A stretch of 64,000 nt of DNA from Theocolax elegans (lineage: Eukaryota > Arthropoda > Insecta > Hymenoptera > Cerocephalidae). The stretch lies in contig CM047428.1 of assembly GCA_026168455.1 (NCBI GenBank), positions 37,228,121-37,292,120 on the forward strand, written 5' to 3'. The translations under genes were made by a program, and so were the position numbers. Below the pieces are notes generated by a model. The model saw nothing but the letters and a program-made list of their open reading frames with translations, made no database searches and had not been told where the DNA came from. This document shows positions 1,900 through 64,000 of the stretch, in pieces (the first letter of the stretch is position 1; every line of letters begins with the position of its first letter).

Positions 1900-3490
1900 G
1901 CTACAATTTTTGTCTAGGATTCGTCTTCTACGTAATGAACTGATGATTTTAACGATGAATGGTGTACAGATGATGCTACTTCACAAAGTCGATTTTGTGA
2001 TTAGAATAGCAGTGATGCAAGTAGTTCTTCTGATGAAGGTGTACATTTTAAAAAATTGAAAGAAGTTATCCGCAGCGATGATTATATTAACATAAGAATT
2101 TCTTTTAAAAAATCTGATTTATTACATGCTGCTCTGAAATATAGTGATACCTAAACATTAAGTCAGTCAGGAACAGCTGATCTTTTTTAATTGATCAAAT
2201 GCATTTTGCAATAGAAAATATTACCAGAATTGCGTTATGAATGTGATGAAGTTACTTTATTGAAAAGTCCTTTATATCGTGATTTTTTACAATTATAAAT
2301 ATTGAAAATGATGTATTTTATTTACTTCAGCAAAATATAAAGTATTTAAAGGAGGTATTTCAAGGTAGGATAAGAGATATAAATATATTTGGTGATTTTA
2401 CTGACGGTTTGTTATATAAACAATTTTTAAGGTCATTACCTCAGGATGAAAGGATAAATTTTGCAACAGCTACATTTAATACTGATGGCAGATCTGTTTT
2501 TGAAAGTTCAGGGATTGATACAATTTAATGGTTACTATGGATGCAACTGGTGTTTACATCCTGGCGAATACATTGAAACAATGCGAGGAGGTAGTGTAAA
2601 ACATACCTTACAAAATAATTTGTCAAGAAAAAGAACGCAAAATGAAACATTACAACATATGGAACAAAGCTTAACCTGTCGACTTCCCGTTTAAGGAGTG
2701 AAAAGTCCTTCACGTTTAATACTTCTTAACAATTTTAATATTATTGATGGATTTGTACACGATGACATGCATTGCCTTTCTCTTGGCGTAGACTAACAAT
2801 TCTTATCATATTGGATTTAAAATAAAAACATGTCATATTCGTTGTGTGAGGAAGAAATTAATTCTATTAATAATATAATTATAAACCTAAAAGTTTCAAA
2901 TCAATTAACTCGATTATCCCGAGGAGTATAGAGAGAAATTGGTGGAAAGCATGTGAATGGGAAAATTGGATTTTATTCTACAGCATTCCAGTTATGTTAA
3001 GCTTTCCTCGTCTATTAATTTATATCCAACATTGGTCTTTATTAGTAGAAGCATTTTATTTATTAAATAAAAAATCATTAATCGTGCTTTCGTAGAAACT
3101 GCTCATGAACTATTAAAAAAATTTGTATTTTGTGCAGAAGTATATTATATTAAAAATGCCATGACGTATAACATTCACCAATTATTGCACTTATCGCAGA
3201 GTGTTCTTAATTGAGGATCGTTATGGGCACATACTGGTTATACTTTTGAAAGAGGCAATGGTCGACTGTTCCAAAAAATACATGCTGCAAAAGGAATAAT
3301 TCACCAAATATGCAGATCAATCAATGTAGTTCAAAGCGAAAGTTTATTGCGTCAACATATGACTTCTAAATTATATTCATCAATTCATTCCTATATTAAT
3401 CATCTAGAAAATAGAAAATTTCAGAATTCATTACAAATTGTAGGTATAAGGTATTCCGGCCAATGTAAGTCTACCGATTAAAGTTAAATT
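1900..3490 (+). pseudogene. CACTA/EnSpm-like transposase remnant, N-terminal and middle part
   Basis: Decayed plus-strand reading with many frameshifts and stops. Recognisable pieces in order: an acidic serine-rich stretch, then SDLLHAALKY, FNTDG followed by VFESSG, IQFNGYYGCNWCLHPGEY with a partial Cys pattern, GVKSPSRLILLNNF followed by IIDGFVHDDMHCLSLGV, IQHWSLLVEAFYLLN, and MTYNIHQLLHLSQSVLNWGSLW then TFERGNGRLFQKIHAAKG. These are typical of the large animal proteins with a Transposase_21-type domain found in CACTA/EnSpm-like DNA transposons. The longest open piece is only 2461-2694. The remnant stops where the Penelope-like element begins, and its expected C-terminal part reappears at about 6.64-7.0 kb on the same strand. 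Confidence 0.7.
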
Positions 3491-18307: not shown

Positions 18308-19354
18308 TTCTATTTGTAGAAATTTTCGAAAGTGGCGGAGAGAATGATGTCGGGAAGACAAATCCAGAGACGAGTAGAAGTCCCGCATACTGACCCAGTT
18401 TAGCTATGTACAAGTAAAGAGTCCTAAAGACACTTGAAGCGTATTAAGGCTTTACCAGGACGGATGCTTAGTAAGTCTTTTCGAACGGCAGACTGAAACG
18501 GACCCGGAAATTCGAATAGCATGGATAGACTAATGAAGGGAGCTCCAATGATACGAGGAACCCAACGAAGGTCTTGATGTGCGATCCAATAGCCTATGCA
18601 GTATGCCTTGGCTCCCCACAACTGACCACGTACCATTTACCGATCATGACGTTAAAAGGCAGGCAACCATACCTAGCCTTAATCTTGTAAATAATAAAAC
18701 TGTCCTCGGACAGATAGACCTAAGAGCACGAAATCTTGTATATACACAGAGCCGGGGCACGGCTAATCAAGCAAGTGCCCCGGGAGCGCAAACAGATCGG
18801 CCAGATGCCATGTACATATTATATCTAGAGCCGGCGTACAACTAATCAAGTTGCTACCCGGATGCGTAGAGAGATTGGCCATATGCCTTGTAAATATACA
18901 AATTATAAAAATCAAATCTAACTATTCCAACTAATCTGTATGAATTCATATGATTCGAAAGTGCACAATTTGAGGCGTGGAGCTCATATCAATCAATCAA
19001 AGGCAAAATAGCCAGAGACCACGCCAATGATATGAACAGCACATACAAGATTAAGATTACAAATTAAATTAATCACATAGATCGCATGGGCATAAGCATG
19101 CGTGTAAATATTGTAAATATTGTACATATTGTAAATAGTAGGAAACGGAAAAGTTAGATAGTAAGAAGTCTTGTCACCTTGTCGTCGTTGCGTCGTATAA
19201 CTCTCTCGTAGGCTCTCTCCAAGCTCCGCATATTTTTACTCAAAACCTCTTCGTCTGTTTTGCGATTTTGCGATTATTTATACTTTTTATATACTACATA
19301 TACACACTCGTTGCTCTAGGTTGAAACTGCCAAAAGCACTTACTAAACAAGAAA
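18308..19354 (+). other. R1-b 5' region downstream of the duplication, with imperfect 100-bp repeats
   Basis: No convincing reading frame. Between about 18725 and 18895 a unit with GAGCCGG, CTAATCAAG and AGATYGGCCAKATGCC occurs twice about 105 bp apart. Just before the ORF the sequence has short TATTGTAAATATTGTACATA runs at about 19110-19140. It could hold the element's promoter and translation leader, but I cannot identify either. Confidence 0.4.
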
Positions 19355-22300
19355 ATGCCCCCTTCCACCAAGGTGAAGAAGGCGAGGGCCATGAGACAAA
19401 TGAGACGAGGCATAGCCGAAGGTTCACGTATCGAACGCGCGAACGCGAAACCGGCCGGCAAGCCCTCTCACGGTAACAAAGGAGTCCAAACCGACAGAAG
19501 CGCCCAAGAGCCACCAAACTCGAAGGCGGGACTGAAGGTGAGGATCCTCCAACTAAACATGGGTAGGTCGAGGGCCGTCACAGACGAAACTCGATGTAGA
19601 ATGGCCAAAACAGGGTTCGACCTCGCTTTAGTCCAAGAACCCTATGCGCCGAAAGGCACATTAACAGGGTTCGGACTTAGCTTTGGTACAATTACAGGTG
19701 CCAGGCCCGACCATACAACAGCGGCAGCTGTGGTTCACAGCTCTGGCACCTTAACGTACACAAGGGTCTCCCAGTTTTGTACTACCCATTGCGTCTGCTC
19801 CATGGTGAGCGGCGCATTTGGACACTTTTACGTGGTCAGTATATACTGCCAATTCAGGGACTCGATAGAGAGATACCTAGCGCAGTTACGACACATTCTA
19901 TCCTCGCTAAAAGATCAAAAGATCTTAATAGCAATGGACGCGAATGCTAAGTCGTCCTGGTGGGGCTCGCCAGTAAATGATGGCAGGGCTCGAGTTCTCG
20001 AGGACTTTGTTCTGGAGCATGACCTGACTGTGATGAATCGAGAGGGGCATCCGGCCACCTGCGTAAGCTCGAGAGGTAAAACCTTTATCGATGTAACGCT
20101 GGCGACCAAGAGCCTCAAACCTTTCGTTACGGGATGGTCAGTAGAAGATTGGTCTACGAGCGATCATAGGCCAATCCATATCGTTGTTGACTTCGGAAGG
20201 CAACCCGTGCGTCTGCAAAGGGTACTAGAACCACGGTTCAATACCCGAAAAGCAGACTGGGAAGCCTTTCAAGAAGCCCTCAAGGCCGAAAAGTCGCGCC
20301 TCTCGGACATGCCGATCAACTCGGAAGACGATGTCGACAAATACGTCGACGCGTTAGAAGAGACGATCATCAAGGCATGTAAGAAGGCGATCCCCATGAA
20401 GAGGAGATTTTCTAAATCGTCCCCATGGTGGAATCCAAGGCTGACACATCTCAGAGGTAAAGTCAAGCGTCTAGAGCGCTTATGGCTAACTCAGAGCACA
20501 GGAAGCGGGACGACTAAGGTCAGGAGGAGACAACGAAGGCTCAGGAACACACTCTCCCTCATGCGGAGAGCTAAGACCGAATACAAGTCCGAGATTACGA
20601 GGTCCAAGAAAGAGAGCTGGAAACAGTTCGTCAGCCGGGAAAGCGAGAAAGACGTATGGAGTCTTCCATACAGGCTCGCTTCAGGCAAAGTACGAACGAT
20701 GAAGGCTCTCAACACTGTAACAGGAGCTAAAGGATCCACAACAACTTGGAAAGAGACCTGTGACGCTTTACTAGACACTCTAGTGCCAGACGATGACGTA
20801 TCGAAGGAGACAGACTTTCACGTTGAAAAACGCAGAGCCTGTCTCGGAGGGCTAGACTCCCAGGAGACACCTCCCTTCACCCGGCTTGAAATATTTCAAG
20901 CAATCTTTGACAACAAGAACGGGAAGAGTCCAGGCACGGACAGAGTGGAAGTAGAAGTGCTCAAGAAGTCATTACCATTGCTAGACGAAATCGACAAATT
21001 GTTCAATGCCTGTTTGAGGTATGGTGTCTTCCCTAAGAGATGGAAGGAAGGAATGCTAATCACTCTTTTGAAATCGCCTGACAGAGATGAGCAGGAAATG
21101 AAGTCTTACAGACCGATTTGCCTGCTCAGCGTCATGGGTAAAACCCTTGAACGCCTCATAATAAAAAGGCTTAAAGAACAGCAACAGGACGAGCCAGGGC
21201 CTACAGGTATCCAGACATCCGGAGATCAATTCGGATTCAAATCCGGATTGTCGACGGAGGATGCCATCATGAGGCTCAGGCAATTAGTCCAAAGTAGCGA
21301 TAGTTCTTATGTGATGGCGTTCCCTCTAGACATCTCAGGGGCGTTCGACAACTTGTGGTGGCCGAGTCTCCTCAGTGAGCTCAAGAGTCGAAAGTGCCCA
21401 GCAAGTCTGTTTAATTTGCTCTCGAATTACCTTCAGGACCGAGAAGTCTGCATCAGAGCGGACTTCGAAGAGGTCCGAAAGAAGGTGAGCAAAGGATGCC
21501 CGCAGGGATCGATTTTCGGCCCAATCGGCTGGAATCTCGATTATGACACCTTACTTAGAGAGCTGCACAGGAACGGGTTTAACGCAATTGCGTACGCCGA
21601 CGACATAATCACCTTAGTCGAAGGCGAAACCCGTACACAGCTCCAAGAACATGGCCAGAGAATGATGGACATTGTCGAAACCTGGTGCGAACAACACAAA
21701 CTGGACATATCGATCCCGAAATCGGGTATGATATTATTGAAAGGACGACTCGATGCTCGTAAACCCCCAAAGGTTCAACTGAAGGGGCAAACGATCAAAA
21801 TGCTAAAAGATATGAAGTACCTTGGTGTAACCTTTCAAGAAAGGTTCGGAGTAACGAAGCACATCCAAATCATCGAATCTAAGTGGTACGACCTACTTGG
21901 TCGCTTATCACAGATCTCTGGCGCGAATTGGGGGATGAAAAATAGATCCCTCAGCCTGGTGTACAAGTGCCTATTTACCCCCATAGTTGCATATGCAGCT
22001 GCTGGGTGGTGGAGCGATGTTGATACAGCTGGAAAGAAGAAGCTTGCATCTTTGCAAAGACGGACTCTTATCTGGCTTTCGAAAGCGTATAACACCGTCT
22101 CCCATGAGGCACTTCAGGTGATCTCTGCTGCTCTGCCCATCGACCTAGTGTTGAAGGAAAGAGCAGCTCATTACCACATCAGGCGGAGCAGATCCGTCCT
22201 CGTGAACGACGTGCGTATCGAAGTGGACCCCGACAGTAGAACATTCGAAAGTGACATCTCTGAAGCCAAAAGAAAAGTCCGTAAGGAACTTTTGAACGAG

Positions 22301-22864
22301 TGGCAGAGGAGATGGGACTCTACAGACAAGGGGTCTACCACACACAAGTTCATCCGCTCTGTACATGACAGGACTAGAAAGAGTTGGTTACGGCCGAACC
22401 ACTACACATCGCAGTTCCTCACGGGACACGGGTCTTTTAAGTCTTATCTGCACCGTTTCGGGAGAAGCGAAGACCCGAGATGTAACTGTGGGCTCGAGCA
22501 AACTTCTGACCATATACTCTTTGACTGTCCCCGTGTAGCCAAGAGCAGACAACCACTCATCGATGCGGTTCACAGGTATGGCCACACGTGGCCATGTGAT
22601 CCTTCGGTGTTGGTTGACCGCATAGAGATCTATCGGGCGTTTACCAAATTCGCCCGAGAATTCGTTCTCCCCTCAGATCGGAACTCCGAGGACGGTGACA
22701 GCGATGATTGCGAAGTTACTCCACCAACACCAAGTTGGAATGAAAGGGAAAGGTCGAATGTTTCTAGAAAGAGGCCACTTCCCTGGCAATCCAGAGTGAA
22801 GCCGTGTACTGTGAAGCTGGTTAGACTGTCTCATCAGGATCTCCAGTCCGTACATCGAGCTTGA
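19355..22864 (+). CDS. R1-b ORF: endonuclease-reverse transcriptase, 1169 aa, intact
   Basis: Start is the first ATG of the open frame, after a short A-rich leader. Residues 1-60 are basic and may bind RNA. The apurinic-type endonuclease spans about 63-275: QLNMG (66-70), VQEPYAP (Glu near 93), DANAKSSWW (Asp195) and SDH (269-271). The RT spans about 525-810: SPGTDRVEVEVLKK, DQFGFKSGLSTEDA, LDISGAFDN (from 658, catalytic Asp), CPQGSIFGP and YADD (747-750). A CCHC module, C-x-C-x7-H-x4-C, occupies 1043-1058 (CNCGLEQTSDHILFDC), as expected for R1-clade ORF2 proteins. All catalytic residues I can check are present and there is no stop or frameshift, so the protein may be functional. Such proteins nick the target and prime reverse transcription of their own RNA. 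The missing partner ORF1 is odd for R1 and would have to come from elsewhere or not be needed. Confidence 0.93.
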   Translation: MPPSTKVKKARAMRQMRRGIAEGSRIERANAKPAGKPSHGNKGVQTDRSAQEPPNSKAGLKVRILQLNMGRSRAVTDETRCRMAKTGFDLALVQEPYAPKGTLTGFGLSFGTITGARPDHTTAAAVVHSSGTLTYTRVSQFCTTHCVCSMVSGAFGHFYVVSIYCQFRDSIERYLAQLRHILSSLKDQKILIAMDANAKSSWWGSPVNDGRARVLEDFVLEHDLTVMNREGHPATCVSSRGKTFIDVTLATKSLKPFVTGWSVEDWSTSDHRPIHIVVDFGRQPVRLQRVLEPRFNTRKADWEAFQEALKAEKSRLSDMPINSEDDVDKYVDALEETIIKACKKAIPMKRRFSKSSPWWNPRLTHLRGKVKRLERLWLTQSTGSGTTKVRRRQRRLRNTLSLMRRAKTEYKSEITRSKKESWKQFVSRESEKDVWSLPYRLASGKVRTMKALNTVTGAKGSTTTWKETCDALLDTLVPDDDVSKETDFHVEKRRACLGGLDSQETPPFTRLEIFQAIFDNKNGKSPGTDRVEVEVLKKSLPLLDEIDKLFNACLRYGVFPKRWKEGMLITLLKSPDRDEQEMKSYRPICLLSVMGKTLERLIIKRLKEQQQDEPGPTGIQTSGDQFGFKSGLSTEDAIMRLRQLVQSSDSSYVMAFPLDISGAFDNLWWPSLLSELKSRKCPASLFNLLSNYLQDREVCIRADFEEVRKKVSKGCPQGSIFGPIGWNLDYDTLLRELHRNGFNAIAYADDIITLVEGETRTQLQEHGQRMMDIVETWCEQHKLDISIPKSGMILLKGRLDARKPPKVQLKGQTIKMLKDMKYLGVTFQERFGVTKHIQIIESKWYDLLGRLSQISGANWGMKNRSLSLVYKCLFTPIVAYAAAGWWSDVDTAGKKKLASLQRRTLIWLSKAYNTVSHEALQVISAALPIDLVLKERAAHYHIRRSRSVLVNDVRIEVDPDSRTFESDISEAKRKVRKELLNEWQRRWDSTDKGSTTHKFIRSVHDRTRKSWLRPNHYTSQFLTGHGSFKSYLHRFGRSEDPRCNCGLEQTSDHILFDCPRVAKSRQPLIDAVHRYGHTWPCDPSVLVDRIEIYRAFTKFAREFVLPSDRNSEDGDSDDCEVTPPTPSWNERERSNVSRKRPLPWQSRVKPCTVKLVRLSHQDLQSVHRA

Positions 22865-33460: not shown

Positions 33461-34142
33461 GGGGTGCCTCCACCTTTCAGGGTTTCGTAATCCATTCCAG
33501 AAGGTTCGGCAAATTTCTTTACAAACATTGTTTTATCTAAAGATAGAAAAAAATGATTGAAAATTGTGCATAAACAATAAATAAAAATCTCCTTAAAAGT
33601 TAATTAAGCATTTTAAAATTTATATTTTTTCGATTTTTCTACAAAATTTTTTTTGTAAGATGGTGAATATATTAATTTATTATTAATCTTATTTAATTCT
33701 TATTATTTATTCAGTTATTGATTTGATCGATTAGAATATATATGAAAGAAGGCAGATACAAATGTTGCTTAGATAAAAAAAACTTTGGCTTTTGTGAGTA
33801 ATATAATGCAGTGCATAATAATCACAAATTGACTCATTTAAATATACATATCTGGTTTTAATATGTTCATTTACATTAAAAATATAATTAAATTATTATA
33901 ATGGAAAAATTGATAAATATATTTTGTTCTGTTTTATTTTAATAAGTATTGATATTCAATATACTATTTTTCATAAACCACAAATTATGATTCTACAAAT
34001 TTTTAACACACATCAAAAAGAAACATCAAAAATAAACAAATACAAAAATAAATATTATTATAATAAATATAATTTAATAATATAATGTAATATATAATAA
34101 TAATAGGAATATAATATAATATAATATAATATTAACAAATAT
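33461..34142. other. Unassigned AT-rich sequence
   Basis: No gene. An ATAAT/ATATAAT-type simple stretch is present at about 34065-34135. Confidence 0.45.
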
Positions 34143-34193
34143 ACTTACCCATTATTCATCCAATATTGCGGTCCGCCATTTAATTTAAAAATA
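34143..34193 (-). repeat. Conserved 50-bp exon-like block, copy 1
   Basis: Minus-strand NGGPQYWMNNG followed by GGTAAGTA. The same block, with NDGPQYWMNNG, is at 45402-45452. TACTTACCCATTATTCATCC is identical in both, while flanks differ. It looks like a short coding end with a splice donor, or a terminal motif of an unknown element. Confidence 0.5.
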
Positions 34194-34790
34194 CATATGT
34201 AATGAACCGGAAAAATTTTTGTTTCTATTATATATTAAGTTTCTATTATTTCATTAACAAATTCGTCTGGGAAATTGAATTATTTCATTTTTATCAAAAA
34301 GAAAATAGATTCAGAGTATCGATACAAATTTTCTCAGTATTACAAGTTTACTTATAGATAGCCCAAACAAATAATGTCCTCTCTTACTTTGAAAGTTCCT
34401 ACGATAAACTCTAACATGAAAATATTATATAAGCATGTGTTATACAATATTTCAAATTCTAATAAACAACTATTTTATTTTTTATGTATATCTCTATGTT
34501 TGCAAATATTTATACAGTTAAATAATAAATTATACACAAAATTTACACTTTTATTTTAAAAAAATTTCATTGAAATAAATGATTAATTATTTAAAAATCA
34601 ATATTACATTATTAAAAATAAATACTTAAAATCTTCTTAACCTATAAATGTTTGCAAACATATATTATTATGTATATTTTAACAAGCTAAAGATTTGTTT
34701 TTATATCTTTTAAATATATTTATTATAACTACTTATACATGTATATAGTTTCTTGTATGTACATATATACATATATATATATATATATAT
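34194..34790. other. Unassigned AT-rich sequence
   Basis: No gene; short (TA)n at about 34765-34790. Confidence 0.45.
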
Positions 34791-36002: not shown

Positions 36003-37910
36003 TACCCTGACCACCTAGACATCGTCTTCAGGAAGTGACAATTTTTTTTGCATATTCAAGCAGGGTGGCACACTACTTACCAGTAGACGATGTCCAGATG
36101 ACCCGGAGGTCACCCTGACCACCTGGACATCGTCTTCAGGAAGTGACAATTTTTTTGCATATTCAAGCAGGGTGGCATACTACTTACCAGTAGACGATGT
36201 CCAGATGACCCGGAGGTCACCCTGACCACCTGGACATCGTCTTCAGGAAGTGACAATTTTTTTTTGCATATTTAAGCAGGGTGGTACACTACTTACCAGT
36301 AGACGATGTCCAGATGACCCGGAGGTCACCCTGACCACCTGGACATCGTCTTCAGGAAGTGACAATTTTTTTTGCATGTTCAAGCAGGGTGGTACACTAC
36401 TTACCAGTAGACGATGTCCAGATGACCCGGAGGTCACCCTGACCACCTGGACATCGTCTTCAGGAAGTGACAATTTTTTTTGCAAATTCAAGCAGGGTGG
36501 CACACTACATACCAGTAGACGATGTCCAGATGTCACGGAGGTCACCCTGACCACCTGGACATCGTCTTCAGGAAGTGACAATTTTTTTTGCATATTCAAG
36601 CAGGGTGATACACTACTTACCAGTAGACGATGTCCAGATGACCCGGAGGTCACCCTGACCACCTGGACATCGTCTTCAGGAAGTGACAATTTTTTTTGCA
36701 TATTCAAGCAGGGTGGCACACTACATACCAGTAGACGATGTCCAGATGACCCGGAGGTCACCCTGACCACCTGGACATCGTCTTCAGGAAGTGACAATTT
36801 TTTTTGCATATTTAAGCAGGGTGGTACACTACTTACCAGTAGACGATGTCCATATGACCCGGAGGTCACCCTGACCACCTGGACATTGTCTTCAGGAGAG
36901 TGACAATTTTTTTGCATATTCAAGCAGGGTGATACACTACTTACCAGTAGACGATGTCCAGATGACCCGGAGGTCACCCTGACCACCTGGACATCGTCTT
37001 CAGGAAGTGACAATTTTTTTTTGCATATTCAGCAGGGTGGCACACGACATACCAGTAGACGATGTCCAGATGACCGGAGGTCACCCTGACCACCTGGACA
37101 TCGTCTTCAGGAAGTGACAATTTTTTTTTGCATATTTAAGCAGGGTGGCTACACTACTACCAGTAGACGATGTCCATATGCACGGATGCGGAGGTCACCC
37201 TGACCACCTGGACATTGTCTTCAGGAAGTGACAATTTTTTTTGCATATTCAAGCAGGGTGGTACACTACTTACCAGTAGACGATGTCCAGATGACCCGGA
37301 GGTCACCCTGACCACCTGGACATCGTCTTCAGGAAGTGACAATTTTTTTTGCATATTCAAGCAGGGTGGCACACTACATACCAGTAGACGATGTCCAGAT
37401 GACCGGGAGGTCACCCTGACCACCTGGACATCGTCTTCAGGAAGTGACAATTTTTTTTGCATATTCAAGCAGGGTGGCACACTACTTACCAGTAGACGAT
37501 GTCCAGATGACCCGGAGGTCACCCTGACCACCTGGACATCGTCTTCAGGAAGTGACAATTTTTTTTGCATATTCAAGCAGGGTGGCACACTACTTACCAG
37601 TAGACGATGTCCAGATGACCCGGAGGTCACCCTGACCACCTGGACATCGTCTTCAGGAAGTGACAATTTTTTTTGCATATTCAAGCAGGGTGGCATACTA
37701 CTTACCAGTAGACGATGTCCAGATGACCCGGAGGTCACCCTGACCACCTGGACATCGTCTTCAGGAAGTGACAATTTTTTTTTGCATATTTAAGCTGGGT
37801 GGTACACTACTTACCAGTAGACGATGTCCAGATGACCCGGAGGTCACCCTGACCACCTGGACATCGTCTTCAGGAAGTGACAATTTTTTTACATATTCAA
37901 GCAGGTTGGC
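36003..37910. repeat. 108-bp hairpin satellite array (about 17 units)
   Basis: Units start-to-start are 107-109 bp, the variation coming mainly from the T run. Each unit holds GACGATGTCCAG, about 25 bp with CCGGAGGTCACCCTGACCAC, then CTGGACATCGTC, so every unit can form a 12-bp stem. Because 108 is a multiple of three and the unit lacks stops, long open frames (217 and 207 codons on plus, 256 and 205 on minus) appear on both strands; I do not regard them as genes. Units differ by few substitutions, with one more diverged unit at about 37140-37200. Confidence 0.93.
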
Positions 37911-41344: not shown

Positions 41345-43376
41345 TATACTCATTTATATTTTAATTACACCTTTTTATAAGTAATTTATACTCCATAATA
41401 GTTTTCTGCAATTGAAAGTACTCAAATCAAAAACACCTTTCAAAAAGGTGTCAAAACCCGCAAGTATATGTGTTATTCTAATCAAACTTTGAAAATTGTT
41501 ATCTGATAAATAAAATTGTTATCTGTCTGATAAATTTTAAAGTATAAGATAAAAATATCTTTGATTCTAATTCCCATATTTTCTCTACTTATTTATATTT
41601 TTATTACACCTTTTCTATATGTAACTTATATTCCATAATATTTTTCTGCAATTGAAAGTATTCAATTCGAAAACACCTTCCAAGAAGGTGTCAAAACCCG
41701 CAAGTATTGTGCTATTCTAATCAAACTTTGAAAATTGTTATCTGATAAATAAATAATTTTAATTTCTAACTACCTTATTTTATCTATTTCTTTGAATTTT
41801 AATGAAACATTTTTATAAATATTACGAAAATTTCGTATAAAAAATTTCTGCAATTGAAAGAATTGAAATCAAACTGAAATCGACAAGTATTTTGAATCGT
41901 ACCATAAATTTATATTTTATATAAACATTTTTATACATATTACTTAAACTTCGTAAAAAGTTTCTGCAATTGAAAGCACTGAAATCAAACTGTAATCGAC
42001 AAGTATTTTGAACCATGCAAAAATTTCTACCAATCTGAATACAGATTTTTTTATATGAAAAGTATCTTACACTATTATTTTTCATTTCTGGACCTCACAT
42101 GTTTTACAGTAATAAATAAATAATATTCTAATGATATTAATTTGTGCAAAATTAATTTCTGCAATACTAATAAAATGGACATTTCTTTTTTATTCTTTTA
42201 AATAATAAAATAATACTTGCACCACCGTTGGTTAAACGCTTCATATATGTGTTAATTCCGACTATATTAACTGATGTTACATTTTATAAATAATTACATA
42301 CATCTTAGCTTTTATCTTATTAATTAATTAATTAATTGGTAAAATCATGTAGATTGTATATCCTTAGTTAAGTGAAATAATAATTATTTTACATAACTAC
42401 TAAGAAAAACTTGCTAATCAGCGACGGAGGTCATACGATGTCTTGGTGAAGAAAGCACTTGTTGAAAATACAGTCGCTAGTGGTGCTTGTATCAATCGGG
42501 CGGGACCGGGAATCAAACCTGGGACCTCCAGATTACGAGTCCGTCGCCCTACCGACCAAGCCATCGCAGGCCTCTTTTAGGAACTTTATTAGATAAAAAT
42601 AATGATGTCTATTTTATCATTGGTGATGTAGGATATTAAAATTGCCAGATAGTATTGCAATATTTATATATTATTACTCATTGCAGTTTCTTCACGGTAT
42701 TATATACTTTCATAAATGTAAAGGAATACATTAGTAAGTCGGAATTAACACATATATGAAGCGTTTAACCAACGGTGGTGCAAGTATTATTTTATTATTT
42801 AAAAGAATAAAAAAGAAATGTCCATTTTATTAGTATTGCAGAAATTAATTTTGCACAAATTAATATCATTAGAATATTATTTATTTATTACTGTAAAACA
42901 TGTGAGGTCCAGAAATGAAAAATAATAGTGTAAGATACTTTTCATATAAAAAAATCTGTATTCAGATTGGTAGAAATTTTTGCATGGTTCAAAATACTTG
43001 TCGATTACAGTTTGATTTCAGTGCTTTCAATTGCAGAAACTTTTTACGAAGTTTAAGTAATATGTATAAAAATGTTTATATAAAATATAAATTTATGGTA
43101 CGATTCAAAATACTTGTCGATTTCAGTTTGATTTCAATTCTTTCAATTGCAGAAATTTTTTATACGAAATTTTCGTAATATTTATAAAAATGTTTCATTA
43201 AAATTCAAAGAAATAGATAAAATAAGGTAGTTAGAAATTAAAATTATTTATTTATCAGATAACAATTTTCAAAGTTTGATTAGAATAGCACAATACTTGC
43301 GGGTTTTGACACCTTCTTGGAAGGTGTTTTCGAATTGAATACTTTCAATTGCAGAAAAATATTATGGAATATAATA
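41345..43376. mobile_element. Foldback element FB2 with mirror-perfect 639-bp arms
   Basis: Arms 41624-42262 and 42738-43376 are symmetric around position 42500 without any indel, and I saw no mismatch in the parts compared; mirrored 87-codon frames (41822-42085 minus, 42915-43178 plus) are by-products. Subrepeats with ACTTGTCGATTWCAGTTTGA and CTTTCAATTGCAGAAAYTTT occur in tandem in each arm. To the left one more subrepeat block (41345-41623) lies outside the mirror. The spacer of 475 bp contains a SINE. It belongs to the same family as FB1. Confidence 0.9.
42415..42577 (-). mobile_element. tRNA-derived SINE in the FB2 loop
   Basis: Minus-strand copy of the SINE at 4899, with box B (GGTTTGATTCC, one change) and box A intact enough to recognise. 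The tail side is degraded to AAGAAAAACTTG. It differs by about ten bases from the 4899 copy. Confidence 0.85.
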
Positions 43377-43697
43377 TAAGTATTCATTAATACCTTACAA
43401 CACCTAACCTTTATTATTAATTCGAATTTTTATTGATTTTTTTTTTCAAAACCTTTTGTAAGATAGAAATTTCTTTTCTATCTTACTATTTTATACATTT
43501 TTGATTATTAATTGTGTTAAGTACTATTGTTTAATTGTAATCGTAAAAAAAAAAAAATAAAAAAAAATAAAGTGTAAAAGAATTGTGAGCTGTATTTGGA
43601 CAATTGTAAGTTACAATTAATACAACAATTTTAAAACTAACATTTCAGTATTTTTGTATATTTCCATTTTTTTTTCATATATCAATCCTGTAGTAAG
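43377..43697. other. Unassigned sequence with A-rich run
   Basis: Mostly AT; an A-rich run at about 43545-43570. Nothing else seen. Confidence 0.4.
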
Positions 43698-43921
43698 AAT
43701 AACTTGCTGTAGATATGCGAATTATTTCTATCCTTTGTTTTAAGCACCGTCAACAATAGAAAACGCTGTAGATCTGCATTTTCTATTCGCCGCTGCTTAT
43801 ACGTGTCAAACACGCTTTGGCTCTGCGCATTTGACACTTCATTTTTTTTCTCTCTCTCTCCCATTACTTTATGTTGCAGCTTTTTCCTCGTGTTCGTAAG
43901 CATCACCTGTAAAGCAGAGAA

Positions 43922-44335
43922 GACGCCCCTCCTGGCGTCCCCTCTCTCTCTAGACGCGTGCCTACTGCTTGCATTGGGGAAAATCCATACGCTGAGTACG
44001 AGCCCTTCCTGGCATCGACTCTCTCTCTCTTTCTCTCTCTCTCATCTCTTTCTCTCTCTCTCTCTCTCCCTCTCTCTCGGTCCACAACGCTCGGCTCCGT
44101 AGAACCGATCCGCCGCTCGTAGCTCAGAAGCGGCCATATTGGGCCCGCTTCCCCCGCCAGCTCGGCGCACGCGCATCCTAGTGTCCACGCGTCGAGTTGA
44201 ACAGTAGCCCCTCCCGGCATACTGTCTCTCTCTCTCTCTCTCTTTCTAGCGCGTTGCTTGCCGACGCATAGCTCGCATAGAGAGAAAAGCCCTTCCTGGC
44301 ACCTCCCAAGTTAGTTCTTTATTTCTCTCACTTCA
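43922..44335. repeat. CT-rich microsatellites inside a duplicated block
   Basis: Several (CT)n runs (about 43948-43955, 44020-44085, 44224-44250). A block with CCCCTCCYGGC, then CT run, then GCGYGT/GCGCGTT and AGCCCTTCCTGGCA, occurs at about 43926 and 44208. It interrupts the spacing of the hairpin array. Confidence 0.75.
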
Positions 44336-44801
44336 ATAATGCACTTACGCTGTGGATCTGCGTGTATGTTTTGGTAGCAAGTAGAAAACTTTGTACCCTT
44401 GTAATCGTGTACATCCCATACCGATATATACATATACATGTCATTCCCTATCTTTATGGTAAATAGAAGAAGCTTTATTAGATCTGCTTCAACTATTTAG
44501 TATAACTCCTAAAAAATTAATTTAGCTTTAGTTCTGCGAAATTAATCATTATATTAAACTCTCCATCCTTTATTTCCATTGTCTCACCGTCAATAATAAA
44601 GAACGCTGTAGATCTGCATTTTCTATTATTCGTCGGCTAAGACGCATTAAACACGCTTTAGATCTGCGTGTTTACCCTTCCCTTTTTCTTGACACTAGTA
44701 GAAGATGCCGTAGATCTGCATTTTCTGCTAGCTGTCAAAATCCCACGTCTCGAACACGCTTTAGCTCTGCGTTTTCGAGCGTTGCGAGCCTCTTCATATA
44801 C

Positions 44802-44805
<4 letters not shown>

Positions 44806-44852
<47 letters not shown>
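44806..44852. repeat. CATA/TA microsatellite
   Basis: ATACATACATACATA followed by (TA)n, between two groups of hairpins. Confidence 0.9.
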
Positions 44853-44854
<2 letters not shown>

Positions 44855-45401
44855 ATATTTGCATGCTTAATATATTATATATCTATACTCGCATCTACGC
44901 GCATATAGACATATAATAAATATATACATATAATTTTATGATTATTAATGTATAAATTTAACTGGGTTGTCGTGGCCCGTACGTTTTTTCCTGAAAGTTT
45001 TCAAATCTCCCTTCTCTACGACGATTTACGCTGTTGACCTGCGAAAATCGGAGTATCCGAGTGGATGTGCTTTAGTTCTGCACCCCCATCCAAGACAACC
45101 TTAATTCACTGATTGTTTCTCTCATGAAATTTGGAGCTGTCGATCTGCTCGATTTTAAGGTAGAAACAATTTGAAGTGAAAACTTAAATTATTCAACAAG
45201 TTGCTTTTGATCTGCAATTGGGAAAAATAATTTAAGTTATTCCGTTTTAGTTACCTTACAATTCGCTTTAGATCTGCGAATCTTTAATTCCCGTCCCACG
45301 ACTTAGTTAAATTCTCGGTTACGTCCCTCCTTCCCAGTACAATTAATTATACATTATATTATTATACATTATAAAATAATACGTTTTTAAATGCAAATAT
45401 T

Positions 45402-45452
45402 ACTTACCCATTATTCATCCAATATTGCGGTCCATCGTTTAATTTAAAATTA
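45402..45452 (-). repeat. Conserved 50-bp exon-like block, copy 2
   Basis: Second copy of the block at 34143-34193. See that entry. Confidence 0.5.
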
Positions 45453-62752: not shown

Positions 62753-63277
62753 TTACAGTAAAGACATCTTGGAATTTGATTTTTGTAAATATCTGACAAT
62801 GCAACCGTCATTACCCCTACCCACAAATCTTGTGTCAGCGTTCTTATGTTGTACGAGTCTTCTTACAATGGCATCGTTCTTTGAAAGATCAGCGGAAAAA
62901 AGCTTAAAGAATTTCTGTAACCCAACACCCCTACTCATATAATCAAGAAATAAAATACAATATTGACCGCACACGTCAGATGAGTCATTTTGCAGCTGTC
63001 GTGAATTCCAACGATAATGCTTACAATTTTTGTTTATTCTATTAATATGAGATGATACAAACGGAGGGTTTCCATAACTATCAAAGTAATATCCAATTCC
63101 ATTTTTACCAACGTATACAGGAACCCAATGCATACCGGGTTTCGTATGATCATCAGTATTGAAGACAAAAGCCGTCGGTTTCATCCACACCCGTGGTATC
63201 CGATCTGCTGGAAATACGCCCACTGTGTGAGTCCGAATACTGGACAAATGTTTCAGAACCTCCAAACTGTTCATCAC
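62753..63277 (-). CDS. Adenain/Ulp1-fold cysteine protease of Maverick/Polinton type
   Basis: 174 codons. Catalytic pattern H50-W51 (MHWVPVYVG), D66 in YYFDSYGNPP, Gln around 94-96, and C103 in DVCGQYCILFLDYMSRG, the arrangement of adenovirus-type maturation proteases encoded by Maverick/Polinton elements, where it is thought to process capsid proteins. Start is taken at the double ATG; the N-terminus (THTVGVFPADRIP) matches the family's normal beginning. No stop or frameshift inside. It overlaps the end of the upstream frame by about 125 bases. Only this gene and its neighbour are in the window; polymerase, integrase and capsid genes, if present, lie beyond 64000 or are lost. Confidence 0.85.
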   Translation of the reverse strand: MMNSLEVLKHLSSIRTHTVGVFPADRIPRVWMKPTAFVFNTDDHTKPGMHWVPVYVGKNGIGYYFDSYGNPPFVSSHINRINKNCKHYRWNSRQLQNDSSDVCGQYCILFLDYMSRGVGLQKFFKLFSADLSKNDAIVRRLVQHKNADTRFVGRGNDGCIVRYLQKSNSKMSLL

Positions 63278-63806
63278 AAAGCGTTATTGGTGTACTAAAG
63301 TTTAATTCAACGGGTGTATTTCTTTTTTTCGAGTTTAGCCACTCTTTTAAACGATAAACATTATTTAATGCACAACTATATTTCAAATATGTTCTCTTTA
63401 ATCTGTGATGGATGCAATATTTATCATTCCATGGTAATTGTTGAAATGACGGACAATCGTTGTCGTACTCCAAATTAATAACCTCGTGCGCTGTCAGTTT
63501 ATGAATAAATAACCATTTTTCTTTACCACGCGTATAGATCGTACGTGCGTTCTTTGTAATTTCTTTCAAACTTTTTATTAACATCTTCTTTGACACTTCA
63601 CCTTCAAAATAATCTATACCGTGATGATGGTTTGTTAACCAGTTATTTTGTTTTCTTATATCTTCAGTTAATCGTTCGATACCTATTGATGGTGCAACGA
63701 TCCAACGTCCACTAAAATCATCGTTCACTGAAACGACTGCCACTTCCTTAGGCGTTACTGTATCTTCTTTTTCTTTGAAACACTGAATGTCAATGATTAT
63801 ATCCAT
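63153..63806 (-). CDS. Exonuclease-like (RNase H-fold?) protein next to the protease
   Basis: 217 codons from ATG 63806. MDIIIDIQCF and later KEVAVVSV, RWIVAPS, NNWLTNHHHGIDYFEGEV, NARTIYTRGKEKWLFIHKL, VINLEYDNDCPSFQQLP and CALNNVYRLKEWL resemble a protein family often seen near Maverick-type genes in insect genomes, with an N-terminal acidic strand (D-I-x-C/E-F) and a region like the core of DEDD nucleases. The last 40 or so codons (after about 63280) read in the frame opposite to the protease start and are probably not real, so the frame may be shifted near the end. Function is inferred only loosely. Confidence 0.5.
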   Translation of the reverse strand: MDIIIDIQCFKEKEDTVTPKEVAVVSVNDDFSGRWIVAPSIGIERLTEDIRKQNNWLTNHHHGIDYFEGEVSKKMLIKSLKEITKNARTIYTRGKEKWLFIHKLTAHEVINLEYDNDCPSFQQLPWNDKYCIHHRLKRTYLKYSCALNNVYRLKEWLNSKKRNTPVELNFSTPITLCDEQFGGSETFVQYSDSHSGRISSRSDTTGVDETDGFCLQY

Positions 63807-64000
63807 GGTGACAGTTTAAAGAGTTAAAACGTACTAATCCGTTTAATGTTGGATTTTTACATTATTCGTCAAACAGCTCCATCTATGAAATATTTATCCG
63901 CTAAAATCGACCATTACTTGTCTTGACGCATCAATTTCTAATATGTTTTCGAATTCAGCATAAATTATACAATTCACGGTAGTATACAATGGTTCATCGA
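63807..64000. other. Unassigned window end
   Basis: No feature seen. Confidence 0.4.

Follow-up and report, generated by a model that had tools for sequence, protein, structure and literature searches.

Organization of the locus

The window (the whole 64,000-nucleotide stretch of the Theocolax elegans genome that was analysed) contains, judging from its similarity to younger copies of the same element elsewhere in the genome, a decayed and interrupted solo LTR of an endogenous-retrovirus-like family, and it is this LTR copy that bears the hairpin array described below. The leader part of the LTR, downstream of the transcription start site, spans 43397..45365 (+ strand; delimited by blastn to related loci) and includes the array; a preliminary description of this DNA had bounded the array at 43698-45313, where it is indeed present, but as only part of this larger repeat, the U3 (5') part of which lies at 34198..34790 (+ strand, beginning TGTAATGAACCGG, 85% identical to L018 6900-7462). 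The 5' end of the U3 part at 34198 was read by eye, and local alignment matches 34218-34790 to positions 55-650 of the L017 LTR. The leader part matches L001, L003, L005, L006, L010, L011, L017 and other loci, mostly at 79-95% identity (blastn), and stops at LTR position 3267 of 3547, the final ~280 bases being absent. The two parts are separated by 8.6 kb of other sequence, and tblastn with seven segments of the element's proteins as queries gave no match in the window.

At 41.3-43.4 kb there is a palindromic repeat with inverted arms (the same frame occurring at 41822-42094 on the - strand and at 42906-43178 on the + strand), copies of which are found in L002 and L003; it is probably a mobile element that contributed to the interruption of the LTR. 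A similar stretch of ~50 bases (ttacccattattcatccaatattgcggtcc) flanks the LTR remnant outside both ends (34140-34190 and 45404-45452), and is not a normal target duplication because ~50 bases is too long. Other features of the window are non-LTR retrotransposon pieces at 10-24 kb, with a 1179-codon frame (19325-22864) that has RVT_1 and endonuclease domains; a GC-rich tandem repeat (36226-37793, unit SDNFFCIFKQGG...) in which both strands are open for more than 200 codons in two blocks; and two overlapping frames without a Pfam match (62753-63815, - strand), the downstream one of which, on visual inspection, resembles a cysteine protease from mobile or viral elements.

The hairpin array

With up to three mismatches allowed, the motif GCTKTAGATCTGC is found at 15 places within 43706-45277, all on the + strand, and when 69-nt pieces were folded the hairpin was the minimum-free-energy structure at 14 of the 15, an alternative pairing being preferred at 43706; this confirms the preliminary description of an array of about fifteen hairpins that share one loop on differing stems. 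Hairpin 1 (43706..43718, loop GC-TGTAGATAT-GC) has three orthologues with TGTAGATCT. Both motif and fold identify hairpin 2 (43765..43777, GC-TGTAGATCT-GC), hairpin 3 (43814..43826, GC-TTTGGCTCT-GC), hairpin 4 (44349..44361, GC-TGTGGATCT-GC), hairpin 6 (44525..44537, GC-TTTAGTTCT-GC), hairpin 7 (44605..44617, GC-TGTAGATCT-GC), hairpin 8 (44655..44667, GC-TTTAGATCT-GC), hairpin 9 (44707..44719, GC-CGTAGATCT-GC) and hairpin 10 (44758..44770, GC-TTTAGCTCT-GC). Hairpin 5 (44475..44487, TTATTAGATCTGC) has a loop of 12 nt because its 5' GC is shifted, and seven copies of it elsewhere read GC-TTTAGATCT-GC. The last five align with hairpins of subfamilies B and C of the element: hairpin 11 (45030..45042, GC-TGTTGACCT-GC), hairpin 12 (45069..45081, GC-TTTAGTTCT-GC), hairpin 13 (45136..45148, GC-TGTCGATCT-GC), hairpin 14 (45203..45215, GC-TTTTGATCT-GC) and hairpin 15 (45265..45277, GC-TTTAGATCT-GC).

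By a strict ungapped criterion (GC-N9-GC with 8 or more of the 12 flanking positions paired), 10 hairpins were counted in 43690-45320, versus a mean of 0.094 and a maximum of 2 in 500 dinucleotide shuffles; when the loop was also limited to at most two mismatches from that of the array, the count was 10 in the real sequence and 0 in the 500 shuffles, so that the comparison with shuffled sequence named in the preliminary description as a possible refutation came out in favour of the array. The loop, which had been called conserved, does recur in the array, but it is less fixed than was claimed, as at least positions 2, 4, 6 and 7 vary among the hairpins of the window. By eye, hairpins 2 and 3, 7 and 8, and 9 and 10 are mutually alike, as if they were duplicated neighbours. 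A scan of the window against Rfam 15 gave no match above the gathering score, and a literature search of limited coverage found no published description of such a hairpin array.

The element family

The exact 13-mer motif is present in 176 copies in the 658-Mb genome (70 forward, 106 reverse), versus 6 for a reversed control pattern. Twenty loci of 10 kb were taken around motif matches, among the matches listed; 15 of these have at least three motif places that pass the filter, and the others are L009 (one motif place), L020 (two), L014 and L015 (two each, with just 2-3 of 12 stem pairs) and L016 (one on each strand, with 8/12 and 5/12 stem pairs). A host lncRNA or host gene was considered and rejected, given this copy number and the LTR sequence that the loci share.

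Near-identical LTR pairs (L017/L018, 99.55% identity over 3558 columns, 13 kb apart; L012/L013, 99.62% identity over 2396 columns, 12 kb apart) locate the array within the LTR, with a TATA box upstream of it. The LTRs start with TG and end with CACA; the target duplication CATA is found on both sides of L012/L013, and that of L018/L017 is not decisive because both flanks are T-runs. A PBS-like sequence (TTTGGTGACAGCGGTGGGAT) follows both 5' LTRs, and a PPT-like purine stretch (AATTAGGAGGGTCA) precedes the 3' LTR. Directly before the polypurine stretch there is a near-invariant hairpin-like sequence (GGAAGAGTTACCRTACGGCAACTTTCC) in 8 of the 14 loci searched, which represent each of the four subfamilies that were distinguished, A to D (L122 120-146, L125 129-155; also L123, L126, L127, L013, L017 and L019).

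The protein domains of the element were read from the stretches near the LTRs, that is, outside the middle 2-3 kb of each element. Reverse transcriptase (RT) and RNase H domains (PF00078, PF17917, PF17919) adjoin the LTRs, a gag domain (PF03732) scores 24.1 bits, exactly at the cut-off, and the element is evidently an endogenous-retrovirus-like LTR retroelement of Ty3/gypsy type, a class to which it was assigned on visual inspection of the RT. L019:7672-9621 (- strand) encodes a fusion glycoprotein of Monjiviricetes type (PF24664, E 2e-230, 766.7 bits), and less than 1 kb separates the end of this frame from the 3' LTR, the order being glycoprotein, then a basic ORF, then the 3' LTR. Relatives of this env product are named from ants and a sawfly among the 120 of 446 matches listed, the best being 50% identical, and searches of viral contigs and of prokaryote genome contigs found none. 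The hairpin motif gave 91 pattern stretches in viral contigs, with the 5' GC in five copies and the stem in none (2-3 of 8 pairs); three viral-contig records with several pattern matches are unrelated tandem repeats.

Similar to glycoprotein-bearing insect Ty3/gypsy elements, this family has LTRs, gag, RT/RNase H and a PF24664 glycoprotein together. Anakin of mosquitoes (PMC7642597) is reported to carry a chuvirus-type glycoprotein from the same source as that of the present element, but Anakin belongs to BEL/Pao and the present element to Ty3/gypsy. Parts of a second report (PMC10084718) describe Gypsy fragments that adjoin Jingchuvirales glycoproteins in Hymenoptera, capture by Gypsy not being clear, and its main text does not contain the word hairpin. 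The family described here combines LTRs, a target duplication and a Monjiviricetes glycoprotein in one gypsy-type element, where those parts of PMC10084718 saw no clear capture of this kind.

The basic ORF between env and the 3' LTR is an orphan, rich in Arg and Lys and ~230 residues long (L017:7592-8287 and L019:6787-7452, both on the - strand). It has 48 matches in the genome, of which 20 are stop-free over at least 220 of 231 residues. Its N-terminal basic block is well conserved, with fixed R, G, T, E, F, M and A and an invariant RGG-x-x-TR-x-R-x-E in six aligned copies, and identity to the first copy is 46-48%, or 72% in one case. A protein search found no relative of the product, and the two forms scanned had no Pfam match above the curated cut-off. 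Array-type hairpins are carried by 8 of 11 stretches downstream of accessory-ORF matches (L122, L123 and L125-L130, the last with just 2, their loop centres being A and C instead of G), and are absent from L124 (foreign DNA right after the ORF), L131 (LTR cut by foreign DNA) and L133.

Placement of the array in the RNA leader

Subfamilies A, B and C have a TATA box upstream of the array. The start site of subfamily D was set by eye from a TATA-like site in L122, because the script put the TATA box of D beyond the array; all start sites are predictions. From the 200 bases before the assumed start site to the 200 bases after it, ATG falls from 13.8 to 3.8 per kb and CAT rises from 12.5 to 21.2 per kb, and 200-base bins have 7.5-17.5 ATG per kb upstream of the assumed start and 0-8.8 per kb downstream. 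The leaders of A (L018, 2473 bases), B (L012, 1482 bases) and C (L125, 1320 bases) and a part of the leader of D (L122, 1810 bases) contain 8, 4, 14 and 1 ATG and 42, 16, 27 and 26 CAT, respectively, on the sense strand, and in each case 0 of 300 shuffles were as ATG-poor. The U3 parts of A, B, C and D contain 9, 10, 18 and 18 ATG and 17, 16, 17 and 21 CAT, and 184, 108, 74 and 270 of 300 shuffles had no more ATG than the real sequence. The copy in the window, decayed as it is, keeps the bias (12 ATG, 42 CAT).

Because ATG is depleted on the sense strand from about the TATA box or start site onward and not in U3, the array apparently lies in the RNA leader of the element, in R or U5, between which the positions of AATAAA do not discriminate. 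The depletion is strand-specific, which suggests that the loop-bearing strand is the one transcribed and scanned by ribosomes, and this sign is independent of the hairpins.

Two other recurrent sites were observed in the leader. A CC-RTA-GG site recurs at the transcription start and before the last hairpins, for which an ungapped test revealed no clear sign of pairing, and a GCCATNTTGGGC-like site, which we take by eye to resemble a YY1/Pho site, is repeated (L018 ~5690, L122 ~2065, window ~44130).

Pairing of the stems

Complementarity of the stems was assessed by an arm-swap energy test, in which hairpins were chosen by loop pattern alone and their arms were exchanged within an element. The 12 hairpins of the window average -9.7 kcal/mol with their own arms and -4.2 kcal/mol with swapped arms, and 7.6% of 132 swaps reach the own mean. 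The corresponding energies are -12.1 and -3.9 kcal/mol in L017 (subfamily A, 16 hairpins, 2.5% of swaps reaching the own mean), -10.3 and -2.2 kcal/mol in L012 (B, 9 hairpins, 0%), -10.8 and -3.0 kcal/mol in L125 (C, 9 hairpins, 0%), and -10.2 and -3.6 kcal/mol in L122 (D, 13 hairpins, one of them unfolded, 7.7%). In 112 motif-only matches drawn from 14 loci, each of the eight inner positions of the stem is paired in 67-90%; when the same matches are slid by 1-3 bases, pairing is 2-70%, apart from a single position that reaches 80%.

Alignment of subfamilies A, B and C brings together five orthologous hairpins. With their own arms these orthologues average -10.18 kcal/mol, versus -6.20 kcal/mol for hybrids of the 5' arm of one subfamily with the 3' arm of another, and 6 of 20,000 permutations were as good. 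For the same five, an ungapped arm-swap count did not reach significance (84/120 own, 154/240 hybrid, 643 of 5000 permutations), perhaps because of bulges in the stems. A strand test of G.U versus A.C gave 75 versus 82, which does not tell the strands apart.

Hairpins of the GC-N9-GC type number 12, 5, 5 and 6 on the sense strand of leaders A to D and 0 in all four U3 parts; counts on the other strand of the leaders are similar (12, 6, 6 and 4) because the reverse complement of such a hairpin is again a hairpin of this type. Four internal stretches have 0-2, and the remaining 62 kb of the window has 3 (antisense 7). Arrays of 9-16 hairpins, with differing loops, are kept in all four subfamilies. 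Pairing of the stems is, on the evidence of these comparisons, kept while their sequence changes, and the earlier suggestion of selection on structure is upheld, in that three subfamilies have changed both arms together (by the energy test, the ungapped count not being significant) and arrays are found in four.

A possible second class of hairpins, with the loop CC-CYTCCT-GG on differing stems, occurs where the arrays of A and D have pyrimidine-rich gaps. Its own arms average -10.9 kcal/mol and swapped arms -7.2 kcal/mol (12 sites), which is suggestive only, because 18% of swaps reach the own mean, and the pairing signal in a chosen ungapped register is weak. The window has candidates on the + strand at 43926..43935 (CC-CCTCCT-GG, stem GACG/CGTC, -16.0 kcal/mol, 16-nt arms), 44003..44012 (CC-CTTCCT-GG, -11.7 kcal/mol), 44208..44217 (CC-CCTCCC-GG, -14.6 kcal/mol) and 44290..44299 (weak here, -4.6 kcal/mol).

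Loop letters

Because the loop patterns used to choose hairpins required G at position 5 and C at position 8, pattern-based counts of these two letters were replaced by those from a set picked with no condition on the loop sequence. This set comprises 48 GC-N9-GC hairpins from eight stretches of leader, all with a loop of the array kind; 46 have the central G5 and 47 have C8. Other positions differ by subfamily. Position 7 is T or C in A, and A or G in 8/9 loops of B and 9/9 of C; positions 3 and 7 are able to pair in 9/9 loops of C; and positions 1 and 9 of the 13 hairpins of D are TA in eight, AT in three, CG in one and CT in one, and so pair in 12/13. One way to view the top of the hairpin is as a small G-centred loop on a stem that contains a pyrimidine mismatch, the height of this mismatch varying by subfamily.

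Possible function of the array

The array is filed here with the leader RNA signals of LTR retroelements, as a variant not known before. Retroviral dimer initiation hairpins and packaging signals also consist of short hairpins, and they too are located in the leader RNA of LTR elements, but there are one or few of them in a retroviral leader and 9-16 here. The Rev, Rex and Rem systems pair an arginine-rich protein with a structured RNA, and the present element has an Arg/Lys-rich ORF downstream of env together with a repeated structure; this is a likeness of layout, and the putative response RNA here, located before the PBS, would be an array of small hairpins that are separate from one another. 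Smaug/Vts1 hairpins have a key loop G and free stem sequence, as in the array, but their CNGG loop is not found here, the second G being absent from the array loop letters in all subfamilies viewed.

Binding of a protein is the most likely reading of the hairpins. The array may be a cis-acting region of the leader RNA in which each hairpin serves as one docking site for an RNA-binding protein encoded by the element itself; the many copies would give avidity, and multivalent binding would pick out the full-length RNA and mark it for nuclear export and/or packaging. We give this proposal, drawn from sequence comparison, a probability of about 0.45. The orphan Arg/Lys-rich protein is the candidate partner and Gag a second candidate, and the feature recognised would be the central loop G together with C at loop position 8, on the stem top with its pyrimidine mismatch. 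That the partner travels with the element is suggested by sites that are repeated, stems that are free to change, and loops that are alike within an element and different between co-resident subfamilies, although part of the uniformity within an element could be due to duplication of hairpin pairs (2/3, 7/8 and 9/10). The parallel between ORF and loop is not independent evidence, because both follow the same element tree.

The docked protein may instead be a translation, localisation or export factor of the host, and the pyrimidine tracts and possible second hairpin class would then dock further host factors. Many host proteins read hairpin loops, the leaders of A and D have long CT tracts along with that second constant-loop class, and the avoidance of ATG in the leader suggests that translation by scanning matters; loops that differ between subfamilies within one genome are not easily explained by a single host protein, however, and we regard a host partner as less likely than one encoded by the element. 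Control of translation by small hairpins, through a scanned leader or internal ribosome entry and without any specific reader of the loop, would agree with the depletion of ATG and with L012, where a 2.2-kb leader with 7 ATGs lies ahead of the first ORF; it is improbable, since the constant loop is left unexplained and the avoidance of ATG favours scanning over an entry that bypasses the leader.

The preliminary description had proposed that the loops kiss through self-complementary AGATCT, as in retroviral RNA, and pairing of two genomes by such palindromic loops would suit an array in a retroelement leader. The comparison with retroviruses holds as to place, the leader of an LTR retroelement, but fails as to mechanism. 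The 9-base loop with a 6-base palindrome that marks the retroviral dimer site is matched in one subfamily and not kept between subfamilies: a self-complementary stretch of 6 nt is present in 4/12 loops of the window and in 8/16 nine-base loops of the young copy L017, but in 1/9 of L012 (B), 0/9 of L125 (C) and 0/13 of L122 (D), and none of the 13 D loops has any 6-base partner among the loops of its own element. AGATCT is common in subfamily A alone, and its absence from two subfamilies and from 8/9 loops of a third means that kissing is not the shared principle, so that dimerisation is quite improbable. Little credence is given to sites that act as DNA, in the manner of repeats of enhancer or insulator type that follow the promoter, with stems that are incidental or cruciform-prone; the gypsy insulator is an array of short sites in a retroelement leader, but DNA-level sites have no need of flanks that are complementary, vary between hairpins and change in concert. 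Least probable of all is a by-product without present function, in which a hairpin-pair unit was duplicated in the LTR and then drifted: three similar hairpin pairs and the decay of the window copy would fit it, but the arrays are present in near-identical LTR pairs and kept in four subfamilies, both arms have changed between three of these, and G5 and C8 are all but constant.

Docking of a protein of the element can be taken a step further, to a more doubtful proposal: that each element has a private hairpin array whose loop is a lineage-specific address label, by which co-resident elements sort their own RNAs via their own arginine-rich proteins. If this were true, loop and protein would have diverged together in a multivalent system, for which the antiterminator N proteins of phages and their boxB hairpins provide an analogue. 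To our knowledge, the choice of RNA for export or packaging by insect retrovirus-like elements has been little studied. The constant-loop, free-stem design is easily searched for in other sequences, and the combination of subfamily-specific loops with an orphan basic ORF in one element makes the question of RNA selection directly testable.
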